Source: an uncultured Elusimicrobia bacterium
GTDB lineage: Bacteria > Elusimicrobiota > Elusimicrobia > Elusimicrobiales > Elusimicrobiaceae
Reading direction: 5' to 3'
Length of the DNA: 64,000 bases
NCBI GenBank assembly: GCA_947306425.1
Contig: CAMZGO010000005.1
Location: forward strand, 1-64,000
Notes under the pieces: generated by a model
Seen by the model: only the letters and a program-made list of their open reading frames with translations
Databases searched by the model: none
Told to the model about the DNA's origin: nothing
In this document: positions 13,150 to 27,292 of the stretch, one piece after another
How positions within the stretch are numbered: position 1 is the first letter of the stretch
Layout: each line of letters opens with the position of its first letter
Translations under genes and position numbers: made by a program

Positions 13150-13449
13150 TTTACCCTCCTGTCGGCGTGTGCCGTTAATTAATTTTAACGGTTTTGGAGA
13201 AAGTGGGAAAATAGGCGCCGGGTTTTGATGCTCGGCGCCTAGTGTGCTTTGAGTGGCAGGCAATATATCGGTATTAACTGCAGTTTTATGGAGAGAATGA
13301 TTCTCTTTGTTACATATATGTTGGTGTGTCTGATATTATAGGAAGAAGCCTGAACTAAAGACACTTTAAAAAGTAGGGTTGTATAAAAAACTTCCTTACC
13401 GTAAATTGATTATACAACCCATCCCCCATTTCAGTTTACCCCAAACCTA

Positions 13450-13503
13450 GTAATCTAATTAGATTACATTATAAATAATAATATAAAAAGACTAGTTTGT
13501 CAA
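13450..13503 (-). promoter_or_regulatory. Promoter with palindromic operator, copy 1
   Basis: On the minus strand TTGACA (complement of 13498-13503), a 17-nt spacer and TATTAT (complement of 13475-13480) form a near-consensus promoter. The perfect 18-bp palindrome GTAATCTAATTAGATTAC (13450-13467) covers the expected start site, the position of a repressor operator. Confidence 0.7.
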
Positions 13504-13521
13504 GGGCGAATTTAAAGATAA

Positions 13522-13562
13522 AAAAGACCTCGTCGGAGATATAGGTCCAAATTAGGTCTTTT
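13522..13562. terminator. Bidirectional terminator
   Basis: AAAAGACCT (13522-13530) pairs with AGGTCTTTT (13554-13562), giving T-runs on both strands. It would end the pilin transcript arriving from 13668. Confidence 0.7.
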
Positions 13563-13667
13563 ATATTAGATGCAGATTTTACCTTTTGGTAGACTATGGA
13601 TATTTTATTTAAGACAGTATTACTGGGCGAGATTTTAATTAAGCCAAAAAGGTATTAGAAAAAAGTA

Positions 13668-14260: not shown

Positions 14261-14449
14261 AATAAAAACGACTGTTCATTTTATGGACACTTAAATACAT
14301 AAAACAAACAGCCGTAACTACTGCCCCGAAGGGCAGCAGCATTAAATATATTTTTACCCGTCGGTTACTCATATATTTGATTACGACTGTTTTTGGTTTA
14401 AGTGTCCTTTTGCTTTCGCAAAATACGGCTTTAAAGCCCCCAAAAACAA
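14261..14449 (-). promoter_or_regulatory. Structured pilin leader element i (attenuator-like)
   Basis: Minus-strand RNA. P1 is 11 bp (14285-14295 with 14397-14407). Inside it are hairpin 3 (14344-14378), hairpin 4 (14318-14339) and an ACGGCTG segment (complement of 14309-14315). ACGGCTG can pair upstream with CAGTCGT (complement of 14383-14389; about 12 bp with flanks and one G-U) or downstream with CAGTCGT (complement of 14268-14274), the latter making a 16-bp stem followed by TTTTTATTT. The 5' motif TTGTTTTTGG (complement of 14440-14449) pairs with CCAAAAACAG (complement of 14387-14396). Two small hairpins lie between (14408-14423 and 14427-14438). Confidence 0.8.
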
Positions 14450-14519: not shown

Positions 14520-16010
14520 AGTTTTTAAACTATTCGGGAGAATTTTTATTAAAATTTCCTTTAAATAACTACAGAAAAAATGGAAAGGGGGAAAATTTAT
14601 TTAAAAATTTTTAAATACACACGGTAAATTGCAGAGGTGGGGGGGGGAATGCCAGCGGTAAATTGTGGCAGTTGGGGAAAATATCGGCGTGTGATAAAAA
14701 AGTGGGGGGAAGTTTTAATTTTTACGAGTGAAAAAGGGGGAAATGAGTAATAAAAAGGGGAAAGTTAAAAAATAAAATGGTGGAAGTTTAGATAAGTTTT
14801 TCCCCTTTTCCGTCGTATATTTTGATCCCCCCTGTTTTGCGAAATTATGGCTTCTTCCAGGTTTATTTACCCCCTTTTAAATTCGTTTAATTCTTCGTTT
14901 AAAGCGTTTTTATTTTGTTTTACAAATACTTTTATATTTTCCGATATTTTTACACCGTAAAAAGTGATTTTAGGGCAATTTTTCTTTAAATTTAAATTTG
15001 ATTAGGTTTATTGTTCCCTTTTTATTTTTAAAGTTTTGGTTTGATTGTTTTTATGTAAATTTTATTTATTTAAAATCCGGAATCTGTTAAAAATCCTATT
15101 TTTTGATTTTTAGGACTTTTTGGGCACTTGCGTTATTTCGTTTTTGGGATATCTACCCTACCCCCAAAAACGAAATACGCGATTTGGTCTTTTTCCGATT
15201 TGGTTGTTTTTTGGGTTGACGGTTTTTGAAAAATTAAAATGGGGTAGGGGGCAAAAAAGTTAAAAATTTCTCAAAATTTTGCCAAAATTTATCTTACAAA
15301 TTTTTTATATATTTTAGCATAATAATTATTCTAATAAAATATTAAAATATGTAATATATAAAAATATATTTAAAATTATGTTTTTTAAATATAAAAATAT
15401 TTTTAAAAATGTAAAATAAAAAATTAAAAAATAGTATAAAAAATGTATTGCTATATTTAAAAATCTATAAAATATATAATAATTAATAAAAAAGTAACCA
15501 TATTATCATATATTTTAAAGTTTATGTAATAATTTTTATAGTTATATTTCATACATTGAAAACATATTATTTAATTAACATAATATAAATTATCACAACA
15601 TTTTAAAGAGGCAAGAAATATGTCATAAAACAAAAATAGGAGTAAAAATTTATCTAAAATTTTGTCCCCCCTTAAATTTACACTTTTATTATTTATTTTA
15701 GAATAATTTTTATGCTAATAATTTTATATAAATTGAAAATATATAAGTCAGTAAAATTTTTAAGAAAGGGGAAATTTAGAAAAAATTATGATAAATTTTT
15801 GGGTTTTGTTTACTTATTTTAGGTTTGGTTTTGAGGTGTTTAGGCAGTTATTATCTATTTTTATAAAGAGAATAAAAAGAGAATAAAGGGTAAAAGTAAG
15901 AAATTTACCCCCTCCCTTGCTATTTGTTAGCCCCATACTTCAAAAATAATCTGGTTATATATTACATTTCTCTGTTTATTTAAGCAAAAAATAGCATCCA
16001 TATAGAAAAT
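14520..16010. other. AT-rich gene desert of 1.5 kb
   Basis: No plausible ORF on either strand. The region is very AT-rich, with poly-G runs (14639-14647), G-rich stretches and long A/T tracts. One perfect-looking inverted repeat occurs: GCGTTATTTCGTTTTTGGG (15130-15148) with CCCAAAAACGAAATACGC (15163-15180), one bulged base. No transposase, tRNA or CRISPR pattern was seen. It could be heavily decayed DNA. Confidence 0.7.
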
Positions 16011-16366
16011 GCGCCGGGTTTTGATGCTCGGCGCCTAGTGTGCTTTGAGTGGCAGGCAATATATTGGTAATAACTGCAGTTTTATGGAGAGAATGATTCT
16101 CTTTGTTACATATATGTTGGTGTGGCTGATTATGCGGAAGAAGCCTGAACTAAAGACACTTTAAAAAGTAGGGTTGTATAAAAAACTTCCTTACCGTAAA
16201 TTGATTATACAACCCATCCCCCATTTCAGTTTACCCCAAACCTAGTAATCTAATTAGATTACATTATAAATAATAATATAAAAAGACTAGTTTGTCAAGG
16301 GCGAATTTAAAGATAAAAAAGACCTCGTCGGAGATATAGGTCCAAATTAGGTCTTTTATATTAGAT
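16011..16366. repeat. 356-bp direct repeat, copy 2 (orphan promoter/leader)
   Basis: Second copy of 13215-13571. It keeps the promoter (TTGACA complement of 16293-16298, 17-nt spacer, TATTAT complement of 16270-16275), the palindrome at 16245-16262, the long GGGTTGTATAA hairpin, the 7-1-7 repeat and the GCGCCG/CGGCGC hairpin. No gene follows it on the minus strand for 1.5 kb. Its strong conservation without a downstream gene argues for either a very recent duplication or a functional ncRNA. Confidence 0.88.
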
Positions 16367-19435: not shown

Positions 19436-19632
19436 AATGAAAAACGGCTGGGTAATTCTGACCTAGTCTAATGCCAAAAATTATACAGCCGTAGTTATGT
19501 GCCTAAACACATAACATTAGCAAAACAATTTTAAGGGAGCTACCCTCAAAATCGTTTTGCCATGACAGCTGCTTTTGAACTAGACTAGGCCTTCTGTTAG
19601 AAAGCACTTCTTTTTAAGAAACTCAAAAACAG
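19436..19632 (-). promoter_or_regulatory. Structured leader element ii (attenuator-like)
   Basis: Minus-strand RNA. P1 is 9 bp (19462-19470 with 19581-19589). Hairpin 3 (19520-19560, arms GCAAAAC.ATTTT.AGGG) and hairpin 4 (19494-19515, GTTATGTG/CACATAAC) lie inside. ACGGCTG (complement of 19486-19492) can pair upstream with CAGCTGT (complement of 19565-19571, one G-U) or downstream with CAGCCGT (complement of 19444-19450) followed by TTTTTCATT. The 5' motif CTGTTTTTGA (complement of 19623-19632) pairs with TCAAAAGCAG (complement of 19569-19578). Small hairpins occupy 19589-19605 and 19608-19620. Confidence 0.8.
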
Positions 19633-19665: not shown

Positions 19666-19771
19666 TGTAAAAATTCTCCTTTTTAAAAGTATAGCATTTT
19701 TGAAAAATAAAAAGGAAAACTTTTTGATTAAAAAATTATAAAATATACTTATAAATAAAAGGAGGATGTAC

Positions 19772-20593
19772 ATGAAAAAGTTATTAATGTGTGTTGCATT
19801 AATTGCTACTTTAGGTATTGGTGCGGCAGCAGAATCCCCAATCAAATTATCTTTAATTGATAATATCGCTTGGCCTAACCCTAAGCATACAAATGTGGTT
19901 TTAGGGCTTCTTGATGCTAAAACCCCGGAAGTTTCCGGTGTGTCTTTAGTCGGTATTTCTTCAAGAGCTGATAAAGTTAACGGTTTATCCGCCTCTTATG
20001 CTTATACGGTATCAAAAGAATTAAACGGTGTGCAGTATGGTATATATAACGCAACCTATAAAGCAAAAGGTGTTACAGATGGTATAGTTAACTATAATAA
20101 AAATGCTTTTACAGGTTTGCAAATAGGTTTTGTAAATATTGCAAAAGAAAATATTAAAGGTGTACAAACAGGTCTCATAGTTGATTATGCAAAAAACTTG
20201 AAAGGTGCACAACTTGCCTTTTTTGTAAATGTTGCTAAAAAAGCAGAAGGTGCACAAATTACACTTCTTACTAACTATGTAAATAATTTAGACGGTGCAC
20301 AAATTGCATTATTAAATATTGCTGAAAATATGAGAGGTGCACAATTGGGTGCTATTAACATCGTATCTAAAGAAATGAAAGGTTTTCAACTTGCGAATTG
20401 GGTTAACTATGCCGGAAGTTTGGAAGGTATGCAACTTGCATTGTTAAATATTGCCGGGGATATGAAAGGTTTTCAACTTGGTTTTGTAAACTATGCACAC
20501 CGTATGGAAAAAGGTTTGCAAATCGGTTTATTTAACATTATTGAACATAACGGTTTGTTACCGGCTTTAGTACTAGTAAACGGAAGATTTTAG
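19772..20593 (+). CDS. Exported repeat protein (LA_2272-type surface repeats)
   Basis: The 273-aa protein has a signal peptide (MKKLLMCVALIATLGIGAAA) and then about ten repeats of roughly 18-20 residues with the pattern G.Q.G..N.A....(K/E)G, for example GLQIGFVNIA, GAQLAFFVNVA, GAQIALLNIA, GFQLGFVNYA. This resembles the LA_2272 family of surface repeat proteins; regular spacing suggests a beta-solenoid or barrel. ATG 19772 is chosen because AAAGGAGG overlaps the earlier ATG at 19766. AT-rich -10-like sequence (TATAAA) lies just upstream. Partner or ligand is unknown. Confidence 0.78.
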   Translation: MKKLLMCVALIATLGIGAAAESPIKLSLIDNIAWPNPKHTNVVLGLLDAKTPEVSGVSLVGISSRADKVNGLSASYAYTVSKELNGVQYGIYNATYKAKGVTDGIVNYNKNAFTGLQIGFVNIAKENIKGVQTGLIVDYAKNLKGAQLAFFVNVAKKAEGAQITLLTNYVNNLDGAQIALLNIAENMRGAQLGAINIVSKEMKGFQLANWVNYAGSLEGMQLALLNIAGDMKGFQLGFVNYAHRMEKGLQIGLFNIIEHNGLLPALVLVNGRF

Positions 20594-22754: not shown

Positions 22755-22760
22755 TCATCT

Positions 22761-23341
22761 TAAATTTGCTGCGCAGCGCGTGAACACGCACGCGCGCTAC
22801 TGTGCAGCGCGAAATTATGCTCGCACGCTACGGTTTATCTATAATAATTATAACTTGTTGATGACCAATGATGTTCTAACGGGACACCCCAGCCTGAATT
22901 TGTTTGATATTTCTCTCCGAAAGAAGCACATATTTTATTTGCTTTTTCATTATTTTCTTGTGCAAGGCATATTCCGCGTGAATCAGTTGCTTGACCGTAT
23001 GGGTCAGTTAATGACTCCATATAGTATATAGATAAATCTATATTTCCGCAATCAATCATAGACGGCCAAGCACTAATAGAAGAATTATATTGATTGTTTG
23101 ACATACAACAAAAAATTTTTCCATTATCAACGCATTTATACATATGGTTTCCTTTTTTGTTTGCTTTAAAATCACTGGATATCGTTATTGAAAGTTCTTC
23201 AAAATTTTGAGTACCTTCATTATGTACTAAGAGATAATCATTATAAGCTGTTCTAAGAGATGATACAATTGTTTGATATTTTTTGAATTCCGCTTTCCCA
23301 ACAACAATTTGATATTTTGGTATGGCAATTGCGGCAAGTAT
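22761..23341. repeat. Mosaic pilin repeat, copy A
   Basis: Pairs with 26216-26796. A 261-bp block (23081-23341) is identical to 26536-26796, and a 131-bp block differs at two bases. Two short patches in the coding C-terminus and the N-terminal coding sequence are diverged. The downstream GC-rich tail (GCAGCGCGTGAACACGCAC) is shared as well. Confidence 0.9.
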
Positions 23342-23439: not shown

Positions 23440-23625
23440 AAAAAAGACGGCCGCGTTTATTGCGAACAACCACACCCACAATAAAAACAGCCGTAGTTTA
23501 TCTGAAAACGATAAACACTAAGCACAAAATAGACGGGTAATTATTCCGTTTATTTTATGCCTTATGCCGTATTTGGGGTGGTTGTGCCTTAATAATAAGA
23601 CGGTGCCTTTTGGCGCCCAAAACAG
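23440..23625 (-). promoter_or_regulatory. Structured pilin leader element iii (attenuator-like)
   Basis: Minus-strand RNA. P1 pairs 23467-23477 with 23575-23584 (CAACCAC core, one bulge). Hairpin 3 is 23526-23556 and hairpin 4 is 23496-23516. The terminator is strongest here: ACGGCTG (complement of 23488-23494) plus TTTATTGTG pair with CGCAATAAA plus CGGCCGT (complement of 23447-23453), followed by CTTTTTT. Both non-Watson-Crick pairs are G-U on this strand. The upstream alternative strand reads TACGGCA, so the antiterminator pairing seen in the other copies is missing. The 5' motif (complement of 23616-23625) still pairs with 23567-23577. Confidence 0.75.
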
Positions 23626-26168: not shown

Positions 26169-26215
26169 TTTCCTCAAAAATACTTGTCTGGTGTGGGTGC
26201 ACGGTTTGGCTTTAT

Positions 26216-26796
26216 TAAATCTGCTACGCAGCGCGTGAACACGCACACGCGCTACTGCGCAGCGCGAAAACATTTTCGTTCTCTACGGCTTATCTATAAT
26301 AATTATAACTTGTTGATTGATAATTATTTATTACTGGGATAGCCCAGCCTGGCGCTGTTTGATATTTATTTCCGAAAGAAGCACATATTTTATTTGCTTT
26401 TTCATTATTTTCTTGCGCAAGGCATATTCCGCGTGAATCAGTTGCTTGACCGTATGAGTCAGTTAATGACTCCATATAGTATATAGATAAATCTATATTT
26501 CCGCAAGCAATACGGGACTCCCAATGACTATATGAAGAATTATATTGATTGTTTGACATACAACAAAAAATTTTTCCATTATCAACGCATTTATACATAT
26601 GGTTTCCTTTTTTGTTTGCTTTAAAATCACTGGATATCGTTATTGAAAGTTCTTCAAAATTTTGAGTACCTTCATTATGTACTAAGAGATAATCATTATA
26701 AGCTGTTCTAAGAGATGATACAATTGTTTGATATTTTTTGAATTCCGCTTTCCCAACAACAATTTGATATTTTGGTATGGCAATTGCGGCAAGTAT
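26216..26796. repeat. Mosaic pilin repeat, copy B
   Basis: Partner of 22761-23341; see that entry. The offset in the identical block is exactly 3455 bp, in the same orientation. Confidence 0.9.
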
Positions 26797-26880
26797 GCCG
26801 ATTATAAGTACAACAACTAAAAGTTCTAACAAAGTAAAACCTTTAATGAATTTTTTATTTTGTTTGTTTTGTATTTTCAT
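26290..26880 (-). CDS. Type IV pilin-like protein, mosaic copy B
   Basis: The 196-aa prepilin has leader MKIQNKQNKKFIKG followed by [17 protein letters not shown] (Leu for Ile at one position). AAGGAG precedes the ATG. The central 87 codons are identical in DNA to copy A, but the sequence for the N-terminal helix differs by mostly synonymous changes. This is the footprint of gene conversion rather than simple recent duplication. The two loop patches differ strongly. Leader element iv lies upstream. Confidence 0.9.
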   Translation of the reverse strand: MKIQNKQNKKFIKGFTLLELLVVVLIIGILAAIAIPKYQIVVGKAEFKKYQTIVSSLRTAYNDYLLVHNEGTQNFEELSITISSDFKANKKGNHMYKCVDNGKIFCCMSNNQYNSSYSHWESRIACGNIDLSIYYMESLTDSYGQATDSRGICLAQENNEKANKICASFGNKYQTAPGWAIPVINNYQSTSYNYYR

Positions 26881-27081
26881 TTTTTCTCCTTATTTTCCTT
26901 TTTTGTTTTTACAACAAAATTGTTTTTTAATTTAACTATTTCCTCTAATTCCTCTCCCCTTTTTAAGGTGGAGAGGTTAGGTGTGGGGTTATTAAATAAG
27001 ATTTACTTTATTTTACAACCCCACCCCCAGCCCCTCCGCCTTTGCAAGCAAAGGGGCGGGGAGTATAAAGAAAATTCAGCC

Positions 27082-27292
27082 AATAAAAAACGGCTGCCTA
27101 TATCGGACTCCACACACGTTGCCCAAATATAACAGCCGTAGTTTGCCAAGTATGTAAAACATACCGGCAAACATTCAATACAAAAAAACGGGTCTAGAAT
27201 CCGTTTTTCTTGTATTTATCGGCTGCTTTTGGCGTGTGTGGAAGTTGGTTTTCCAACTAACCCATATTCTAAAAATATGGTTCCAAAAACAG
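27082..27292 (-). promoter_or_regulatory. Structured pilin leader element iv (attenuator-like)
   Basis: Minus-strand RNA. P1 is 9 bp (27110-27118 with 27233-27241, CCACACACG/CGTGTGTGG). Hairpin 3 is 27178-27215 and hairpin 4 is 27141-27172. ACGGCTG (complement of 27133-27139) can pair upstream with CAGCCG (complement of 27220-27225) or downstream with CAGCCGT (complement of 27090-27096). The downstream stem extends through TATAT/ATATA and is followed by TTTTTTATT. The 5' motif CTGTTTTTGG (complement of 27283-27292) pairs with CCAAAAGCAG (complement of 27223-27232). Small hairpins lie at 27244-27257 and 27262-27280. Confidence 0.8.

Follow-up and report, generated by a model that had tools for sequence, protein, structure and literature searches.

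A family of predicted four-strand attenuator leaders preceding pilin-like genes in gut Elusimicrobiota

Four related leaders in the window

The stretch of DNA analyzed here, referred to below as the window, comprises 64,000 nucleotides of an uncultured Elusimicrobia bacterium (contig CAMZGO010000005.1, positions 1 to 64,000, assembly GCA_947306425.1). Its minus strand carries four structured leaders, designated copies i to iv, which are members of one large RNA family and candidate transcription attenuators. Each leader is built from four segments with alternative pairing partners, a stem designated P1 and hairpins A, B, 3 and 4. The features are listed below, with the basis of each assignment in brackets where applicable.

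27283-27292, minus strand: copy iv, segment 1 (CTGTTTTTGG), anti-antiterminator strand (complementary to segment 2, with compensatory changes among the leaders)
27262-27280, minus strand: copy iv, hairpin A (two hairpins here in most leaders, see below)
27244-27257, minus strand: copy iv, hairpin B (as for hairpin A)
27233-27242, minus strand: copy iv, P1 5' strand (TCCACACACG) (own versus swapped duplexes; covariation)
27220-27232, minus strand: copy iv, segment 2 (CCAAAAGCAGCCG), antiterminator strand (pairing comparison; alignment)
27178-27215, minus strand: copy iv, hairpin 3 (double changes at 16 of 16 pairs)
27192-27200, minus strand: copy iv, hairpin-3 loop AUUCUAGAC with the 6-nt palindrome UCUAGA (layout 2+6+1)
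27141-27172, minus strand: copy iv, hairpin 4 (alignment)
27121-27139, minus strand: copy iv, segment 3 (ACGGCTGTTATATTTGGGC), shared switch strand (duplex energies; alignments)
27109-27118, minus strand: copy iv, P1 3' strand, within the terminator loop (duplex energies; covariation)
27090-27108, minus strand: copy iv, segment 4, terminator 3' strand (duplex energies; terminator alignment)
27085-27090, minus strand: copy iv, terminator T-run
26290-26880, minus strand: gene after copy iv, type IV pilin-like protein of 196 amino acids (Pfam N_methyl)
23447-23625, minus strand: copy iii, segment 1 to terminator 3' strand (hairpin-3 loop AAUAAUUAC at 23537-23545)
19444-19632, minus strand: copy ii, segment 1 to terminator 3' strand (hairpin-3 loop GUAGCUC at 19537-19543)
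14268-14449, minus strand: copy i, segment 1 to terminator 3' strand (type B hairpin 3, GACG loop at 14359-14362)

At the 5' end of the leaders a promoter-like −10 box is often visible. AGGAG comes next in roughly half of the leaders, and a minority also have an AUG with a stop directly after it. A small hairpin then leads to segment 1 (CUGUUUUUGGA), of which segment 2 (UCCAAAAACAG; consensus UCCAAAAACAGYYGU) is the reverse complement. In the 5' to 3' direction, segment 1 is followed by hairpins A and B (108 of 111 leaders have two hairpins at this place), the P1 5' strand, segment 2, hairpin 3, a short linker and hairpin 4, after which the 3' half continues with segment 3 (ACGGCUGUUAUAUUUGGG), the P1 3' strand, segment 4 (CUCAAAUAUAACAGCCGU) and a U-run. 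P1 is a 10-bp copy-specific stem that adjoins the pairing of segments 2 and 3 (2:3). The loops of hairpins A and B vary among leaders, and a conserved GNRA or pentaloop contact in these hairpins was dropped from consideration because the loops are too variable.

An earlier sequence-only reading of this DNA had proposed that an ACGGCTG segment pairs either with an upstream CAGYYG strand or with a downstream CAGCCGT strand followed by a T-run. Both partners are present on the minus strand: in copy iv, ACGGCTG (27139-27133) faces CAGCCG (27225-27220) upstream and CAGCCGT (27096-27090) plus the T-run downstream. Also as proposed, the P1 3' strand (27118-27109 in copy iv) lies inside the terminator loop, and P1 and the terminator are incompatible. 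Terminator hairpins are predicted for all four copies: folded alone, the stretches from segment 3 to the T-run reach −22.7 (iii), −21.8 (iv), −20.8 (i, 18 bp) and −16.8 kcal/mol (ii). The inventory of strands was accurate for the three that had been named, but a fourth had been overlooked, namely segment 1 (27292-27283 in copy iv), which pairs with the antiterminator strand. Similarly, the 7-bp core is present, but the actual stems are longer, segments 2 and 4 both extending over TATATTTGGG. Antiterminator pairing had been assigned to copies i, ii and iv only; it is seen there, but a weaker version (UACGGCA) is kept in the predicted fold of copy iii as well. Two further points had gone unnoticed, namely how large the family is and that the loops of hairpin 3 are self-complementary. 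The whole leader of copy iv folds with −88.1 kcal/mol, 8.6 standard deviations below shuffled sequences.

Conservation, distribution and downstream genes

To describe the helices, we designate as ON the fold consisting of P1, 2:3 and hairpins 3 and 4. In an alignment of 40 sequences, 96.6% of the cells of this fold were paired, compared to 30-47% in slid controls, and changes on both sides were found at 34 of its 43 pairs, with all four Watson-Crick pairs being used at most positions of P1. The terminator fold, in which segments 3 and 4 pair (3:4), was paired in 90.2% of cells (33-56% when slid), and seven of its pairs had changed on both sides. When the duplex formed by the strands of one leader was compared to duplexes with swapped strands, the own combination was better in 117 of 118 distinct leaders for P1 (−13.9 versus −3.9 kcal/mol) and in 115 of 118 for 3:4 (−22.5 versus −17.8 kcal/mol). 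For the pairing of segments 1 and 2 (1:2) this was so in 86 of 111 leaders, and the compensations CUAUUUUUGGA/UCCAAAAAUAG, CUAUAUUUGA/UCAAAUAUAG, CUGUUUUUGAG/UUCAAAAGCAG and CUGUUUUUAAA/UUUAAAAACAG were observed. For 2:3, of which the strands are near-invariant, the own duplex was better in just 77 of 118. A third alternative hairpin (CAGCC...GGCUG after the U-run) was considered and dropped, as it occurred in 13 of 34 leaders from the own genome (6.2 expected) and in 17 of 77 from relatives (15.2 expected).

A covariance model built from eight copies retrieved 46 copies in the 1.44-Mb genome (E-values from 5.5e-32 to 1.3e-5), clearly set apart from the next matches with E-values of about 0.1; a leader used as a DNA query against the same genome gave dozens of partial matches. 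Among 199 sampled genomes of the phylum, 58 contained matches, and these were confined to two families. Fuller counts in selected relatives gave 126, 43, 22, 17, 14, 10, 6, 3, 2, 2 and 1 copies, and zero copies in two other genera of Elusimicrobiaceae. A degenerate DNA pattern searched against 84,980 species genomes returned 38 stretches, 36 of which are titled Elusimicrobiota (Elusimicrobiaceae/Elusimicrobiales, Avelusimicrobium and Endomicrobium), while the remaining two (L144 and L155), titled 'uncultured bacterium', have model scores identical to those of leaders L069 and L067 from Elusimicrobiota samples. The RNA family was found in gut Elusimicrobiota only (Elusimicrobiaceae and Endomicrobium), where its density, with 46 copies in 1.44 Mb and 126 in a relative, is unusual for a structured RNA. 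No exact match to the pattern was found in viral contigs, and a phage origin of the leader was therefore dropped.

A search of Rfam 15 gave no family above the gathering cut-off, T-box and cyclic di-GMP riboswitches included, so that identity with a known riboswitch or leader family was dropped. A T-box likeness of UUGGAACC looks accidental, since this sequence sits in a 5' strand and is paired, and its ACC is not conserved. The family apparently represents an undescribed structured RNA: no description of it was found in an incomplete open-access collection of papers that lacks most subscription journals, and this collection likewise yielded no bacterial attenuator with palindromic loops.

Nearly all copies are located shortly upstream of an open reading frame (ORF) in the same orientation, the median distance from the end of the leader to the start codon being 38.5 nt. 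A G-CG element plus a T-run was present at the end of 133 of 138 leaders. In copy iv, a G+C-rich inverted repeat of ~135 bp (26940-27076) is situated between the leader and the pilin gene and gives this leader an unusual 205-nt gap; compared to Rfam, the repeat gave chance microRNA matches only. The first ORFs after the 46 leaders encode about 24 type IV pilin-like proteins, 11 short TPR proteins and 4 SNase-type nucleases, as well as, once each, LicD, a glycosyltransferase, a subtilase, a helicase with a PLD-like domain, an MptE-like protein and a zinc-ribbon protein; one leader has no downstream ORF. In the relative with 126 copies, pilin genes follow 39 of 40 sampled leaders. Gut Elusimicrobiota can have large numbers of pilin-like genes in their genomes: the 1.44-Mb genome has 108 N_methyl (type IV pilin-like) matches, and most of these genes lack this leader.

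All 46 P1 arms in the own genome differ from one another, while segments 1 to 4 are shared. P1 could thus act as a copy-specific lock, but neutral drift would look alike. Copies iii and iv are followed by pilin genes (22760-23059 and 26215-26514) that are recent paralogues with 88% identity over 300 bp; the two leaders have different hairpin-3 palindromes (UAAUUA in iii, UCUAGA in iv) and different P1 arms.

Self-complementary loops of hairpin 3

The apical loop of hairpin 3 occurs in a limited set of interchangeable forms. Seven-base loops are mostly NN[GAUC]N, AGCU being found within GGGUAGCUCCC. Most nine-base loops are NN[6]N with UAAUUA, UUAUAA, UUGCAA or UCUAGA as the six-base core; in five the core is just the four bases GAUC. 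Most loops of ten bases have the form NNN[UCAUGA]N, those of eleven bases follow NNN[6]NN with UUAUAA, UUCGAA or CACGUG, and the type B hairpin 3 has a GACG tetraloop (7 copies). With the position of the dyad fixed by the length of the loop, a palindromic core was present in 150 of 153 leaders, and 9 of the 12 distinct core tetramers were palindromic (binomial P about 3e-9, the dyad rule having been set after part of the data had been seen). For the nine-base loops, the dyad after base 5 was palindromic in 82 of 82 cases, and the two neighboring dyads in none. In a set of 40 leaders from a relative whose genome was fetched after the palindrome idea had been formed, 38 had palindromes of at least 4 bases, and CUCGAG was added to the known cores. 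No comparable excess of six-base palindromes was seen in the loops of hairpin 4.

An intramolecular partner for the loop was dropped as unlikely, because the core is repeated within the same leader only at chance level (10 found versus 9.0 expected). Self-complementarity that is maintained through nine different core sequences is most readily explained if two copies of the loop make contact with each other, and judged from these comparisons it constitutes strong evolutionary evidence for a homotypic RNA-RNA contact in bacterial leaders. Functional RNA oligomers are rarely observed in nature; among those known, the HIV-1 dimerization initiation site (DIS) palindrome and the GACG loops of Moloney virus are kissing loops that form homodimers, and the Guanidine-II riboswitch makes palindromic two-base CG loop contacts in a bacterial leader (PMC7357161). 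The type B hairpin 3 has the GACG tetraloop in common with SL1/SL2 of Moloney virus (PMC7357161), but its stem is different, with an asymmetric internal loop, and its dimerization is putative. Guanidine-II hairpins are short with a two-base palindrome, whereas here a single hairpin displays palindromes of 4-6 bases, without a guanidine-related theme among the genes.

The HIV-1 DIS loop has nine bases in a 2+6+1 layout. As in that loop, hairpin 3 presents a palindromic core at a fixed offset, the shared layout consisting of a six-base palindrome with two bases on its 5' side and one on its 3' side. In contrast to DIS, it is located in a bacterial mRNA leader and has palindromes of several, mostly A/U, sequences, and the putative dimerization is proposed from the loop sequences.

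A predicted switch and its candidate signals

Segment 2 can pair with segment 1 or 3 and segment 3 with segment 2 or 4, which gives the leader a four-segment logic. In the OFF state, which would be the default, segment 1 would pair with segment 2 around hairpins A and B; since this leaves segment 3 free, it could pair with segment 4, giving an intrinsic terminator. The ON state would instead join segments 2 and 3 in a helix that P1 closes and that encloses hairpins 3 and 4; the terminator could then not form, and the gene would be transcribed. The balance might be tipped to ON by a ligand, a protein, folding kinetics, or another leader RNA contacted via the hairpin-3 loop. Without segment 1 the ON and OFF folds are near balance (difference 1.8 ± 4.0 kcal/mol of about 60) and with it OFF is favored by 9.2 ± 3.5 kcal/mol, these being calculated equilibrium values from which co-transcriptional folding could differ. 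As the calculated energies favor OFF, the ON state probably needs help, and the simplest reading of the model would be termination by default with read-through on a signal.

Mutually exclusive helices that share a strand occur together in more than 100 diverged copies, with a terminator and U-run upstream of same-orientation genes. The attenuator logic that the sequence-only reading had suggested for the next gene is therefore strongly supported by comparative sequence evidence, and we consider it very probable that each copy is a cis-acting four-strand transcription attenuator in the 5' leader of the following gene. Leaders with an anti-antiterminator include those of Bacillus subtilis rplJL (PMC4538822) and vmlR (PMC9226507). 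The present leaders resemble four-segment attenuators (trp-operon type, rplJL, vmlR) in opposing 1:2 plus 3:4 to 2:3, in the intrinsic terminator and in the gene directly downstream; they appear to differ in having 46-126 diverged copies per genome, an additional P1 clamp and self-complementary hairpin-3 loops, and in lacking a leader peptide or a known binding protein. The family offers a concrete account of how many pilin paralogues could be switched.

Several points weigh against this account. Covariation supports every helix except 2:3, which it cannot test because this pairing is nearly invariant, and the alignments produced with the covariance model tend towards the ON structure. In a small number of copies hairpin 3 is missing or the terminator ends poorly, so that this hairpin is not essential everywhere. 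Moreover, hairpin 3 is common to the ON and OFF folds, and the route from dimerization to switching is therefore not obvious.

As to the signal, dimerization of leaders from the same locus or with a shared loop class, the kissing hairpin-3 loops shifting the balance between ON and OFF, is a tentative candidate. The nine palindromic cores at a fixed place in the loop, their recurrence in the later-fetched genome, the lack of an intramolecular partner and the homodimer precedents for the GACG and six-base loops (PMC7357161) are consistent with it. However, palindromes may merely stabilize or localize the RNA, nascent leaders are scarce, and 6 of the 46 copies in the own genome miss a clear self-complementary loop. 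It is likewise possible, though less likely than not, that the attenuators act across the regulon, in which case leaders would recognize each other via interchangeable palindromic loops as a class code, with P1 unique to each copy, and terminated or nascent leaders would control read-through into their own or a sister pilin gene by dimerizing.

In other bacteria, pilin genes are under the control of leader switches of the cyclic di-GMP riboswitch classes GEMM-I and GEMM-II. Here, too, cyclic di-GMP or another small molecule might set pilin expression by binding the ON fold or the 1:2 junction, and the riboswitch-like layout, the single regulon of surface-type genes and the two GGDEF domains in the genome would fit this. 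Nonetheless, we regard a ligand as a tentative possibility only, since the architecture differs from that of GEMM-I and GEMM-II, no Rfam riboswitch matched, and the variability of the hairpin A and B loops leaves no obvious invariant pocket beyond the switch strands. Rather unlikely, too, is an RNA-binding protein that stabilizes either the antiterminator or helix 1:2. Paired strands conserved across so many leaders would suit a single trans-acting factor, but only one NusG-domain protein was found in the genome, so that an antiterminator of the LoaP/RfaH type, which would be a second NusG-domain paralogue, was dropped, and a search of the genome for ANTAR proteins gave zero matches, although the control genomes were equally silent.

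Ribosome-mediated attenuation through a 5' AGGAG...AUG-stop sequence was also weighed. Of 111 leaders, 57 have a Shine-Dalgarno-like AGGAG, against 15 expected; it usually lies 40-60 nt ahead of segment 1 (19676-19693 for copy ii), and an AUG with an immediate stop follows it in 12 of 34 own-genome leaders. However, an AUG follows the motif in only 15 of 111 leaders overall and in 1 of 77 from relatives, and no conserved leader peptide was found among the 111 leaders, the AUG mostly being followed by a stop at once. The translated peptide rich in the regulatory codon that characterizes trp-type attenuators was thus not found, which makes this mechanism improbable; the motif could instead be a 5' stabilizer or a ribosome-parking site. 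Finally, that the leader is a repeated mobile element or hitchhikes with pilin cassettes as these duplicate, and has no regulatory role, might be suspected from the range of 0 to 126 copies among relatives and the prevalence of pilin genes in the 126-copy genome, but this is highly improbable in view of the compensatory changes that keep every variable helix despite deep divergence, the TPR, nuclease, LicD, glycosyltransferase and protease genes that also follow in the same orientation, and the viral contigs without a match.

Elsewhere in the window, an ORF on the plus strand (19766-20593) contains tandem repeats of ~45 bp at 20113-20542, and two direct repeats of ~360 bp with 96-100% identity are located 2.8 kb apart at 13210-13571 and 16006-16366.
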